Assembly: GCF_000427645.1 (NCBI RefSeq)
Contig: NZ_KE386571.1
Location: 1,167,676-1,231,675 of the forward strand
DNA from: Sphingomonas phyllosphaerae FA2
GTDB taxonomy: Bacteria; Pseudomonadota; Alphaproteobacteria; Sphingomonadales; Sphingomonadaceae
Reading direction: 5' to 3'
Length of the DNA stretch: 64,000 nt
Made by a program: the position numbers and the translations under genes. Under the pieces are notes generated by a model that was not told where the DNA came from, searched no databases, and saw only the letters and a list, made by a program, of their open reading frames with translations. Below are positions 2,133 to 53,432 of the stretch, piece after piece (position 1 is the stretch's first letter; every line of letters begins with the position of its first letter).

Positions 2133-3065
2133 TCAGCCCTGCGGCACGCCCGAAGCGGCGGCGACCTCGGCGGCGAAGTCGGACACTTCCTTCTCGATGC
2201 CCTCACCAAGCTGGAAGCGGACATAGTCCTTCAGCACGATCTCGGCACCGGCGTCCTTGCCGGCCTTGGCGACCACGTCGCTGATCTTGGTCTTGCCGTC
2301 CATGACGAACAGCTGGCTGACCAGCGCGTGCTCCTTGCGATACTTGGCAATCGAGCCCTCGACCATCTTGGCGATGATGTCGGCCGGCTTGCCCGATTCG
2401 GACGCCTTCTCGGTCGCGATCGCGCGCTCGCGCTCGATCTCGGCCTCATCGAGGTCGTTCTCGTTCAGCGCCTTCGGGAACGCGGCCGCGATGTGCATCG
2501 CCAGCTGCTTGCCCAGACCCTGCAGCACGTCGTCGGCGGCGGTGCTCTCCAGCGCGACCAGCACGCCGATCTTGCCGAGGCCCGGCGCCTGCTGGTTGTG
2601 GACATAGGCCACGACCGCGCCATTCTCGACGCTCAGCTGACGCGCGCGGCGGATCGACTGGTTCTCACCGATCGTCGCGATGTTGTTGGTCAGCACCTCC
2701 TCGACGGTGGTGCCCGACGGCATCTTCTCCGCCTTGATCGCATCGACGTCACCGCCGGTGGCGAGCGCGATCTGCGTCACGTCGCGGACGAAATTCTGGA
2801 ACTGCTCGTTCTTGGCGACGAAGTCGGTTTCCGAGTTCACCTCGACCACCGCACCCTTGGTGCCGGCGACGGCGACGCCGACCAGACCCTCGGCGGCGGT
2901 GCGGCTCGACTTCTTCTGCGCCGCGGCCAAGCCCTTGGTGCGCAGCCAGTCCAGCGCCGCGTCGGTGTCGCCACCGGTCTCGTTCAGCGCCTTCTTGCAG
3001 TCCATCATGCCCGCGCCGCTCTTCTCGCGCAGGTCCTTGACCATCGCTGCCGTGATATCGGCCAT
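2133..3065 (-). CDS. tsf: Translation elongation factor Ts
   Basis: Guanine-nucleotide exchange factor that recycles EF-Tu-GDP. The 310-residue product starts [20 protein letters not shown] (N-terminal UBA-like domain) and has the diagnostic [10 protein letters not shown] motif near residue 80 that inserts into EF-Tu. ATG at 3065 is chosen over an upstream in-frame ATG because it gives the conserved N-terminus and is preceded by GAGGACAG. It is the second gene of the rpsB-tsf pair, 109 bp downstream of rpsB, with a hairpin in the gap that may adjust read-through. Confidence 0.97.
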
Positions 3066-3138
3066 TTGACTGTCCTCGATTGTGATGGAGTCGACGCGCG
3101 GCGACATTTCCATCGCCACGCGTCGATCGGGAAATAGT

Positions 3139-3162
3139 GGAGGCGCCGGTTACGACGCCTCC
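3139..3162 (-). terminator. Intergenic hairpin between rpsB and tsf (attenuator or partial terminator)
   Basis: A perfect 7-bp stem GGAGGCG/CGCCTCC with a 10-base loop sits just after the rpsB stop; on the minus strand it is followed by ACTATTTCCC. The tail is weakly T-rich, so partial termination or an mRNA-processing or stabilising role is more likely than a full stop. Confidence 0.4.
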
Positions 3163-3174
3163 ATGACATTCGCT

Positions 3175-3978
3175 TTACGCGGCGGCGGTTTCGCCCTCGG
3201 CCGCTGCGGGTTCCGCGGCCGGCTCTGCGGCCAGCGCCTCTTCCGCCGGCGGTTCGCTCATCGCGCCCAGATCGACGCCACGGCTCGCCTGCTGCTGCTG
3301 GTTGCCGCGGGTCGAAGCGATCGCGATCGCTTCGCAGTACAGGCGGATGGCGCGCGCCGCGTCGTCGTTCGCCGGCACCGGGAAGGCGATGCCGTCCGGC
3401 GACACGTTCGAATCGAGGATCGCGACGACCGGGATGCCGAGCGTGTTGGCTTCCTTGATCGCCAGCTCTTCCTTGTTGGCGTCGATCACGAACATCACGT
3501 CCGGGATGCCGCCCATGTCGCGGATGCCGCCCAGCGACAGCTCGAGCTTGTCGCGCTCGCGGGTCAGCTGCAGCACTTCCTTCTTGGTGAGGCCGGCGGT
3601 GTTGCCCGACAGCTGCTCCTCAAGGCTCTTCAGGCGCTTGATCGAGTTCGAGATCGTCTTCCAGTTGGTGAGCATCCCGCCCAGCCAGCGGTGGTTGACG
3701 AAATGCTGGCCCGAGCGACGCGCCGCCTCGGCGACCGGCTCCTGCGCCTGGCGCTTGGTACCGACGAACAGCACCTTGCCACCCGACGCTACCGACTGGC
3801 TGACGAAGTCGAGCGCGCGCGCGAACAGCGGCACGGTCTGCGACAGGTCGATGATGTGGACGCCGTTGCGCTCGCCGAAAATGTAGGGCTTCATCTTCGG
3901 GTTCCAGCGGTGGGTCTGGTGGCCAAAGTGCGCGCCGGTTTCGATGAGCTGCTGCATGGAGACGACAGGAGCCGCCAT
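3175..3978 (-). CDS. rpsB: 30S ribosomal protein S2
   Basis: Component of the 30S head/body junction, needed for S1 binding. The 267-residue product starts [20 protein letters not shown] and has the two S2 signatures, the N-terminal [21 protein letters not shown] and the internal HHIID-type and [12 protein letters not shown] segments. The C-terminus carries an alanine/glutamate-rich tail (about residues 235-267), common in alphaproteobacteria. The start is supported by GAAGGAAAC about 7 bases upstream. It leads the rpsB-tsf operon; its 5' leader contains a small inverted repeat (GACCT..AGGTC near 4020-4033) that could serve autoregulation, which is only an inference. Confidence 0.97.
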
Positions 3979-4132
3979 GATGTGTTTCCTTCCGGTTGAG
4001 CCTCTGGGGAGCGAGTGACGCGACCTGAAAGGTCAGCGCACCGGTTGATGATGCTCCCCATGCGGGGTTGAGGCGCGCGCCTTAGCCGAAGCGGTTGCGC
4101 GATGCAACCGGCGATCGGGTGTTGACACCTGC

Positions 4133-4171
4133 GAACATAGATGGAACAAGGTGTGGGAACAGAGCGGGAAC
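4133..4171. promoter_or_regulatory. Two direct-repeat LexA-type boxes (GAAC-N7-GAAC, twice)
   Basis: GAAC occurs at 4133, 4144, 4157 and 4168. The first pair and the second pair are each separated by exactly 7 bases, giving GAACATAGATGGAAC and GAACAGAGCGGGAAC. This is the operator form used by alphaproteobacterial LexA. The boxes lie 98 bp upstream of the small membrane-protein gene at 4270 and 155 bp upstream of rpsB. Which transcript they control is not settled by sequence. Confidence 0.6.
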
Positions 4172-4174
4172 CTT

Positions 4175-4210
4175 GTTCCTAAACGTCCGCTCTGACATTG
4201 ATTTAGGAAC
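4175..4210. promoter_or_regulatory. 9-bp perfect inverted repeat, 18-base spacer
   Basis: GTTCCTAAA at 4175-4183 faces TTTAGGAAC at 4202-4210. A second perfect 9-bp inverted repeat, GGAACAAGG (4143) with CCTTGTTCC (4171), overlaps the LexA-type boxes. The density of inverted and direct repeats in this 80-bp stretch marks it as an operator region. Confidence 0.4.
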
Positions 4211-4269
4211 CACGGCGCTGTGCAGGAATTTACAGCACCATGGTTCGCACGATGTGCGAGGAGGCGAGC

Positions 4270-4512
4270 ATGGCGACCTTGATGGCGGTAATGGTGTTCG
4301 GTGGAGCGGCGGGTCTCGCGCTCTATGCGCTGGCGGTGACGGTGCTCCCGCAAGCCGCGCGGATCGCGGCAGTGCTGCGCGGGCAGTCGGGCAGCGCGCG
4401 GTTCGAACCGCTCTCGACGTTGGTCCGCGCCGAGCGGCGGATCGCGGTCAGGCGTTGGGCGGCAGGATCGACGATGACCCGGGTGACGTTGCGCTCGCGC
4501 GAAGCCGCTTGA
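4270..4512 (+). CDS. Small single-pass membrane protein, possibly SOS-regulated
   Basis: Unrecognised 80-residue protein. Residues 3-26 form one clear hydrophobic segment ([20 protein letters not shown]), followed by an arginine-rich soluble tail of about 50 residues, consistent with a single inner-membrane span. ATG at 4270 has a strong Shine-Dalgarno (GAGGAGGCGAGC) immediately upstream; an earlier in-frame ATG at 4240 lacks one. The 3' end overlaps the convergent pssA by 65 bp. Two LexA-type boxes lie about 100 bp upstream. Small SOS-induced membrane proteins such as Caulobacter SidA block division, so that role is one possibility, but nothing in the sequence proves it. Confidence 0.6.
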
Positions 4513-5260
4513 CGCGCGCGTAGCTGGCGACGCTGAACGGCAGCGCGAGCAGATAGGCGATGCCGGCCGCGGCGGCGGTCTGCCACGGCGCACTGACGGC
4601 CGCGGCGCCGACCGCCACCACGATCGCGATCGCCTCAAAACGGATATTGGGGCGCAGCTTCAGCGATCCGGTCGAGAAGGTGGCGAGGCTCGACACCATC
4701 AACAGTGCGACCATCACCGTCCACGGGGCGACCAGCCGTGGGTCGCGCAGGATCGGTGCCTCGGTGACGAACCACAGGAACAGAGGCAACAGCGCCAGCG
4801 CGGCGCCGGCCGGTGCCGGCACGCCGGTCAGGAACCCCGCCGATTTGTGTGGCTGGTCGTCGGCGTCGATGTTCGCGTTGAACCGCGCGAGGCGCAGCGC
4901 GCAGAACACCGCGAGGACTAATGCCGCCATCCAGCCGAACCGTGGCAGCGCATGCAGCGACCAGAGATACAGGATCAACGCGGGCGAGACGCCAAACGAG
5001 ATCGCGTCGGAAAGCGAGTCGAGTTCGGCACCGAACCGACTCTCACCGTGCAGCATGCGCGCGACGCGGCCGTCAAGGCCATCGAGCACGCCCGCGATCA
5101 GCACCATCACGACCGCCATTTCCCATTGCGCCGAAATGGCGAACCGGATGCCCGACAGTCCCGAGCACAGTGCCAGTGCCGTCACCGCGTTGGGCGCGAC
5201 CGCGCGCAGTGGCAGGCCACCGGGGGGGCGACGAAGCGGGCGGCGGATCGGCGGGCGCAT
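4448..5260 (-). CDS. pssA: CDP-diacylglycerol-serine O-phosphatidyltransferase
   Basis: Makes phosphatidylserine from CDP-diacylglycerol and serine; integral membrane enzyme. The CDP-alcohol phosphatidyltransferase motif is complete: DGLDGRVAR, then G and the two spaced aspartates in [10 protein letters not shown], at about residues 60-86. Several hydrophobic segments follow across the 270-residue protein, as expected for the type II PssA. It starts 4 bp after the psd stop, so psd-pssA form an operon that converts CDP-DAG to phosphatidylethanolamine. The substrate (serine rather than glycerol phosphate) is inferred largely from this pairing. Confidence 0.93.
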
Positions 5261-5264
5261 CCGC

Positions 5265-5987
5265 TTACTGCGACTTGCCGGTGATGCGTGGCACGCCCAG
5301 GCGTCCCAGCACCGTCTCGCCCGCCACCGCGCGCTGCCCCAGCGCGACCTGCGGTTCGAACCCTTCCGGCAGATACACGTCGACGCGGCTACCGAAGCGG
5401 ATCAGCCCGACGCGCTGGCCAGCCGCGACGATGTCGCCGATCTTGGCAAAGCCGACGATGCGGCGCGCCACCAGTCCGGCGATCTGCGTGAACCCGACCC
5501 GGCGGCCATCGAAGCCCTCGACCACAAAATGCTGGCGCTCGTTCTCTTCCGACGCCTTGTCGAGATCAGCATTGAGGAACTTGCCCGAGATATAGACGAC
5601 CTGCCGGATCGTTCCCGCGATCGGCGAGCGATTGATGTGCACGTCAAACACCGACATGAACACCGACACGCGCACCATCGGCGCCTCGCCGAGATCGCCG
5701 ATCAGCTCACGCGGTACCGGGACGCGCTCGATCATCGTGATCAGGCCGTCGGCGGGTGAGACGATCAGGTCGTCGCCGATCGGCGTGGTGCGCACCGGAT
5801 CGCGGAAGAACGCCGCCACCCACAGCGTCAGCCCCAGGAAGGGCCAGAAGAACACCTTGGACACGATCGTCATCAACAAGGTGATGCCGAACGCGATGGC
5901 GGTGAATTTCTGCCCCTCCGGGTGAACGGCGGGGAAGCGCCACTTGACGGTGGTCGTGACGACCGGCGGCTTGTCGAGCGAAGTCAT
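5265..5987 (-). CDS. psd: Phosphatidylserine decarboxylase (archaeal-type, pyruvoyl enzyme)
   Basis: Decarboxylates phosphatidylserine to phosphatidylethanolamine. The 240-residue length and the C-terminal FGSRVD motif fit the short PSD-A class, in which the proenzyme cleaves itself between Gly and Ser to create the pyruvoyl prosthetic group. Two hydrophobic stretches near residues 30-65 anchor it in the membrane, and [16 protein letters not shown] is the conserved central motif. It precedes pssA by 4 bp on the same strand and diverges from icd, with 107 bp between the starts. Confidence 0.95.
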
Positions 5988-11514: not shown

Positions 11515-11529
11515 GAACCGCGATTGAAC
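11515..11529. promoter_or_regulatory. LexA-type direct repeat upstream of yaaA
   Basis: GAACCGCGATTGAAC: two GAAC half-sites separated by 7 bases, 29 bp before the yaaA ATG. The spacer is more GC-rich than usual and each half is preceded by T, so an OmpR-type response regulator with 11-bp spaced repeats is an alternative binder. Confidence 0.4.
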
Positions 11530-42057: not shown

Positions 42058-42072
42058 GAACAGGTAGGGAAC
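42058..42072 (-). promoter_or_regulatory. LexA-type box directly before uvrD
   Basis: On the coding strand GTTCCCTACCTGTTC, i.e. GTTC-N7-GTTC, ends 3 bases before the uvrD GTG. Gene identity (a classical SOS gene) and position strongly support a real operator. Confidence 0.7.
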
Positions 42073-53417: not shown

Positions 53418-53432
53418 GAACGATCAGGGAAC
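53418..53432 (-). promoter_or_regulatory. LexA-type box upstream of radA
   Basis: On the radA coding strand GTTCCCTGATCGTTC (GTTC-N7-GTTC), 21 bp before the ATG. The divergent gene at 53556 is 123 bp away and is a less likely target. Confidence 0.6.

Follow-up and report, generated by a model that had tools for sequence, protein, structure and literature searches.

Positions 4122-4512 of the window, the 64,000-nucleotide stretch of Sphingomonas phyllosphaerae FA2 DNA that was analyzed, probably form an SOS gene in which a promoter blocked by LexA drives an inner-membrane protein that would pause cell division as SidA does and would then be removed by a protease through its C-terminal xAA end. 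Two LexA-type boxes lie within a promoter that points at a small ORF. The boxes, GAACATAGATGGAAC (4133-4147) and GAACAGAGCGGGAAC (4157-4171), are on the forward strand, are exact matches to GAAC-N7-GAAC, and sit precisely where the first-pass annotation had placed them. That annotation did not describe the hexamer TTGACA at 4122-4127, which reads as the -35 element of the ORF promoter. It lies 5 nt ahead of box 1, and therefore the boxes appear to occupy the spacer, the -10 region, and the start of a promoter directed toward the ORF. Box 1 is in the spacer, and its second half overlaps the candidate -10 element AACAAG (4145-4150), which was placed by the 17-nt spacing. Box 2 covers the probable transcription start. 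A scan for consensus promoters finds none at the ORF promoter, and the -10 element is weak in S. phyllosphaerae FA2.

Matches to the box pattern are more numerous than expected by chance, both in the window and in the genome. The window has five exact matches, compared with a mean of 1.5 in 100 dinucleotide shuffles, three of which had at least five; with this mean, the earlier estimate of about one chance match per window was a fair one. The whole genome has 89 matches versus 33 for the reversed control pattern. Because the control is matched this often, a lone match is weak evidence, and what counts is the pair of boxes, their position in the promoter, and their conservation. The other sites in the window, at 11515-11529, 42058-42072, and 53418-53432, have no clear repair gene alongside. 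More sites without a clear adjoining repair gene are found at L152 (957-1172, minus strand), L136, L140, and L143, and one such extra site precedes a 72-aa protein that has no NCBIfam match. The extra sites, some of which are intergenic, may belong to additional SOS genes or may be due to chance.

The same box form is found at SOS genes elsewhere in this genome. Intergenic boxes precede recA, lexA (two overlapping boxes), and uvrA, and also rmuC, a radical-SAM repair protein, two ImuA-like genes, and a topoisomerase nearer to ParC than to GyrA. The NCBIfam cut-off is passed by recA, lexA, and the radical-SAM protein; the other genes preceded by boxes fall below it, and three of them were read from stretches cut at the end. 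The inspected sites are a non-random 53 of the 89, with nine in loci returned by searches and the rest picked by hand, AT-rich spacers first. By our own gene calls, 29 of these sites are intergenic and 24 are intragenic, and the intragenic ones are likely chance matches. A LexA domain is found in all 26 genomes tested, including those without the gene near rpsB. According to the available text of PMC3323433, GTTC-N7-GTTC is the LexA motif of alphaproteobacteria. The features expected of a LexA regulon are therefore found here: a direct repeat in the promoter, the motif at recA, lexA, and uvrA, and LexA itself. SOS control of the ORF through LexA is well supported as a prediction from sequence, and we infer that LexA binds the boxes and that DNA damage induces the gene.

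The promoter and box are conserved together throughout the sampled genus. The pattern TTGAC-N4..8-GAAC-N7-GAAC was sought in 420 nt upstream of the homologous ORF, and it is found in all 70 loci, which are the 73 loci with the ORF minus G012, G019, and G149. The weak homologue in G149 (L059) has a box with one mismatch, in the first half-site. The first-pass annotation had named loss of the boxes with retention of the ORF as an observation that would count against it, and none of the 70 loci shows such a loss. Markov sequences gave 0.009 boxes and 0.0000 combinations of TTGAC and box per locus, while the reversed pattern was present in 0 of 70 loci and the opposite orientation in 1 of 70. The gap between TTGAC and the box is 4 nt in 13 loci, 5 nt in 34, and 6 nt in 23. 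The second half-site of the first box is GAACATA in 48 of the 70 loci, suggesting that the -10 element overlaps the box, and a second box lies 23-25 nt from the first in 26. Among the 80 named loci, the upstream sequence is long enough in 79, and all 79 have the combination; this set overlaps the 70-locus sample and includes many loci from the same species. Together with the boxes at recA, lexA, and uvrA, this conservation supports the original reading of the ORF as a candidate SOS-controlled small membrane protein of sphingomonads.

The frame at 4270-4512 on the forward strand is coding, and the ORF is a gene. It encodes 80 aa with an N-terminal transmembrane helix and a basic tail that ends in REAA. 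The ribosome binding site GAGGAGG (4258-4264) is located 5 nt before the ATG, and one transmembrane helix is predicted, in agreement with the first description of an 80-residue, one-span membrane protein gene with a strong ribosome binding site. The ATG at 4240, which would give a longer ORF, is not common to the closest relatives, while the start at 4270 aligns with theirs. Homologues at E ≤ 1e-3 are found in 73 of 151 sampled genomes of the genus (its own included), and none of them has internal stops. Differences at codon positions 1, 2, and 3, summed over ten pairs among the five closest sequences, number 120, 64, and 264. The closest named relatives are in Sphingomonas endophytica DSM 101535 (91%, residues 1-70), an uncultured Sphingomonas (89%), and Sphingomonas sp. 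8AM (88%), and nearly all of the 80 named loci with a homologue are titled Sphingomonas. The gene is also present in records titled Arthrobacter sp. TPD3018 and Microvirga sp. SRT01 (L302/L304). These two titles look wrong, since the records carry a Sphingomonas gene.

The protein of the window matches no curated family; its best Pfam hit has an E value of 0.089 (13.2 bits, cut-off 33.6), and NCBIfam gives no matches. Among 20 members, the best E values are 0.022 in Pfam and 0.06 in PHROGs, each for a single member and neither assigning a family. PDB sequences also give no matches. In the literature on LexA and the SOS response in sphingomonads, on alphaproteobacterial LexA, on SOS-induced small membrane inhibitors of division, and on SidA and DidA, the gene is undescribed at the level of titles and the first parts of abstracts, with few subscription journals represented, and the available text of PMC13384398 and PMC6473078 has nothing bearing on it.

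The shape of the protein is that of a small membrane anchor with a charged tail. By hydropathy and predicted helix it has the single transmembrane helix and the length of less than about 110 aa that are typical of small SOS membrane division inhibitors. The AlphaFold model (mean pLDDT 77.5, pTM 0.35) has only two helices, at residues 2-36 (confident) and 48-79 (less certain). The positive-inside rule is a guide to membrane topology, and across the 70 loci the net charge is 0 or -1 in the first five residues and +3 to +10 after residue 26. Because of these charges and this rule the basic tail is predicted to be cytoplasmic, with a very short N-terminus outside. The C-terminus is AA in 63 of the 70 loci and VA in the other seven; for comparison, 5 of the 55 genes predicted in the window end in AA. 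A C-terminal xAA is also the end of SsrA-type tags. The available text of PMC5422525 describes these tags as being read by ClpXP, and by analogy the xAA end may be a degradation signal.

The distribution of the promoter is wider than the distribution of the protein sequence. With profile A1 the family is detected in one genome out of 387 from the class (its own genome) and in 14 of 247 from the order, of which 13 belong to the genus of the window (its own included); this search is not fully sensitive, as the first-look candidates scored per genome were limited to 14 and 22, respectively. A genus-only gene was considered and rejected, because a survey of the region upstream of rpsB shows positional equivalents missed by the profile. 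The survey included 48 genomes of the family (23 genera, its own included) and 22 loci of other families in the order. Within 450 nt upstream of rpsB, an exact box is present in 35 of the 48 family genomes and TTGAC plus box in 29; within 700 nt a box is present in 36. Of the 23 genera, 16 have a box near rpsB. In 34 of the 36 family loci the box is followed by an ORF that is 40-130 aa long, carries an N-terminal hydrophobic (transmembrane) segment, and starts 15-260 nt after the box start, and 33 of these 34 ORFs end in [AVT]A, that is, in Ala after Ala, Val, or Thr. In the other families none of the 22 loci has a box upstream of rpsB, one has such an ORF at a matched distance, and none has the [AVT]A end. 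There are a few exceptions within the family: a box without an ORF of this description in L073 and L083, a similar ORF that lacks a nearby box in L090, and a box with one mismatch before a similar ORF in L080. The sequence upstream of rpsB in L063 looks like part of a coding region and is uninformative. Sequence similarity among the ORFs of the family is mostly lost, and the argument that they all share one ancestor is built on position, promoter, and shape rather than on alignment.

The promoter also accompanies the small gene where the two stand apart from rpsB. A blind search for TTGACN4-8GAACN7GAAC covered 17 genomes: ten from the family in which rpsB has no exact box within 700 nt, the genome of the window, and six from other families (the genomes of L059 and L080 were left out). 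In six of the ten family genomes (G593, G616, G569, G626, G132, and G602), a site precedes an ORF of this type. The six ORFs have likely starts 61-194 nt from TTGAC and lengths of 55-106 aa; five end in AA and one in RA, and some are a few kb from rpsB while others are elsewhere. G607, G578, G590, and G572 have no site in this search. Sites without such an ORF include second sites in G569 and G626, two others in the genome of the window, and four in three genomes of other families. Over the 17 genomes the true pattern has 15 matches. The site alone is not specific, because the reversed control has five matches, but the combination of site and ORF is specific. The chances are about even that these genes represent an unnamed SOS effector common to Sphingomonadaceae, recognizable by its promoter, its membrane anchor, and its xAA end and not by its sequence. 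Such an effector would inhibit division and would evolve so fast that homology is seen almost only within a genus, with a LexA switch fixed throughout the family.

The proposed mechanism begins with LexA on the two boxes, which would block a sigma-70-type promoter (TTGACA at 4122, with the boxes over the spacer, -10, and start). DNA damage would lead to RecA-driven cleavage of LexA, and the promoter would open. The 80-residue protein would then be made and enter the inner membrane with its one N-terminal helix, leaving the basic tail in the cytoplasm, and it would pause cell division through membrane contacts, as SidA does in Caulobacter. The nearly universal xAA end would mark the protein for rapid degradation by a protease of the cytoplasm (ClpXP/ClpAP or FtsH) after repair. 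The promoter layout, the box conservation, the match to the SOS genes of the genome, the composition of the helix and tail, and the C-terminal conservation come from the sequence itself. The topology, the division target, and the proteolysis are what we infer, and the steps after the switch are modeled on SidA, DidA, and SosA, as described in the available text of PMC4211646 and PMC6851548. By analogy, the protein is most likely a transient inhibitor of division that acts like SidA or SosA and carries a C-terminal degradation signal. We class the gene with the SOS-induced small membrane division inhibitors as a candidate, and not as SidA.

The comparison with known division inhibitors shows both likenesses and differences, as far as the available text of the cited papers goes. 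SidA, with 29 aa, and DidA, with 71 aa, are small proteins of the inner membrane that inhibit division in Caulobacter crescentus (PMC4211646). SidA (CCNA_02004) is likewise a small inner-membrane protein from an alphaproteobacterium and is SOS-induced (PMC4211646, PMC11034885), but its 29 residues set it apart in length from the 80 aa found here, in a comparison made by description, and the gene of the window adjoins rpsB. DidA is similar in size and has one predicted transmembrane helix, but it is SOS-independent, unlike the gene with LexA-type boxes described here (PMC4211646). SosA of Staphylococcus aureus has a comparable length (77 aa); it is a division inhibitor with one membrane span that is induced in the SOS response, is found at one chromosomal place at 25-60% identity, and is turned over through its C-terminus (PMC6851548). 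The C-terminus of SosA has been shown to be extracellular, with turnover tied to CtpA (PMC6851548), whereas here the tail is predicted to be cytoplasmic and has an xAA end. YneA of Bacillus subtilis is grouped with SosA as an SOS-induced division inhibitor.

Synteny with sidA by way of dnaE and rpsB is a lead only. Twenty alphaproteobacterial loci, each with 8 kb upstream of rpsB, were chosen from 94 matched genomes, and a dnaE-like motif is found in seven of them. In L213 (G195), at 3802-3981 on the minus strand, LexA-type boxes overlie a short ORF that has a single hydrophobic segment and is located upstream of dnaE, which is in turn upstream of rpsB. This ORF is possibly a sidA-like gene; it is on the dnaE strand, while the gene of the window is instead divergent from rpsB. 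Pelagibacter is also listed with dnaE adjoining rpsB in the available text of PMC2704228. In the genome of the window the dnaE-type genes are far from rpsB. The nearest listed box is about 4 kb from the first of them, and the second is in the region of the ImuA-like genes.

An SOS-controlled toxin of the TisB kind, which would depolarize the membrane or slow growth and would be further controlled by a structured leader, is also compatible with LexA-type control of a one-span hydrophobic protein, but it is unlikely. TisB of Escherichia coli is named as a membrane toxin and is a membrane protein, as is the protein here. It is an SOS-controlled, very short peptide without a long tail, and the toxin is under antisense RNA control. 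The leader of the ORF is about 110 nt long in the window, counted from the putative start, has an inverted repeat in the 5' UTR (GAACCACGGCGCTGT / ACAGCACCATGGTTC, 4207-4246), and folds more stably than shuffled sequences (about 4158-4281, z = -4.06). Several inverted repeats with common arms are seen in this leader. Fast divergence would also suit a protein whose physical character outweighs its sequence. However, the stability of the leader is modest across the genus, with a median z of -1.39 in 70 loci and values below -2 in 21, a basic tail of about 50 residues has been kept, which TisB does not have, and no antisense gene was noticed.

About as doubtful as the toxin is an SOS-controlled membrane protein with another job, such as modulating a membrane protease, an envelope enzyme, or a transporter during damage. 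The data fix the regulation and the membrane location but not the target, and the best conserved stretch among 20 aligned Sphingomonas members, which lies within the tail, could bind a partner. A looser tail motif, PLxxLxxAExxIA[VI]RRW, is present in 58 of the 70 loci. In those 58 loci the helix of the motif shows no amphipathic character (mean moment z -0.31). The motif is not visible in the positional equivalents from other genera in the family survey, and hence there is no need to postulate a conserved partner in the cytosol; parsimony favors the role known for small SOS membrane proteins elsewhere.

The divergent rpsB gene (ribosomal protein S2; 3175-3978, minus strand), whose N-terminal part has a match in 107 of 109 genomes of the order, had been offered as the alternative target of the boxes. 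It is very improbable that the boxes serve an rpsB-tsf operon with the ORF as a bystander. The boxes do occupy the intergenic region, at a distance of 155-193 nt from the start of rpsB in the window, but TTGAC points at the ORF with nearly fixed spacing to the box, and in the ORF promoter the boxes cover the spacer, the -10 element, and the start. A candidate rpsB promoter (TTGCAT ... GCTAAG, 4081-4107, minus strand) is separate from the boxes and lies between them and rpsB, with the boxes upstream of it, and a loose pattern of this type fits 52 of the 70 loci. LexA control of rpsB is judged unlikely because of this candidate promoter and because the box stays with the small gene where it is parted from rpsB, as in the six genomes above; in other families rpsB has no boxes (0 of 22). 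The rpsB leader (3979-4085, minus strand) is structured and conserved in the family; visual inspection shows stem changes on both sides, and a CCGGTG...AACCGG pairing lies close to the ribosome binding site. This leader was considered as a new RNA and rejected, since it fits the rpsB leader motif published in PMC2704228, in so far as the available text describes it. Rfam has no match at E ≤ 1 in 3000-5500 of the window. On the other side of the ORF is a convergent gene (4448-5260, minus strand) that reads as pssA-like, of the CDP-diacylglycerol-serine phosphatidyltransferase type, and overlaps the 3' end of the ORF by 65 nt.

Finally, another regulator reading GAAC direct repeats could be proposed, as the assignment of the boxes to LexA comes from their sequence, but the identical box form at recA, lexA, uvrA, and the ImuA-like genes of this genome makes this highly improbable.

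The proposed SOS division inhibitor offers a concrete candidate for the link between DNA damage and cell division in a large family of bacteria from soil, water, and plant surfaces. It is a case of regulation that is conserved far beyond protein sequence, and it suggests that such genes may be found by searching for promoters rather than for proteins. The fast-evolving small membrane protein encoded next to a ribosomal protein gene, under its conserved LexA-type switch, is a good candidate for the factor that would pause division in sphingomonads while DNA is repaired.
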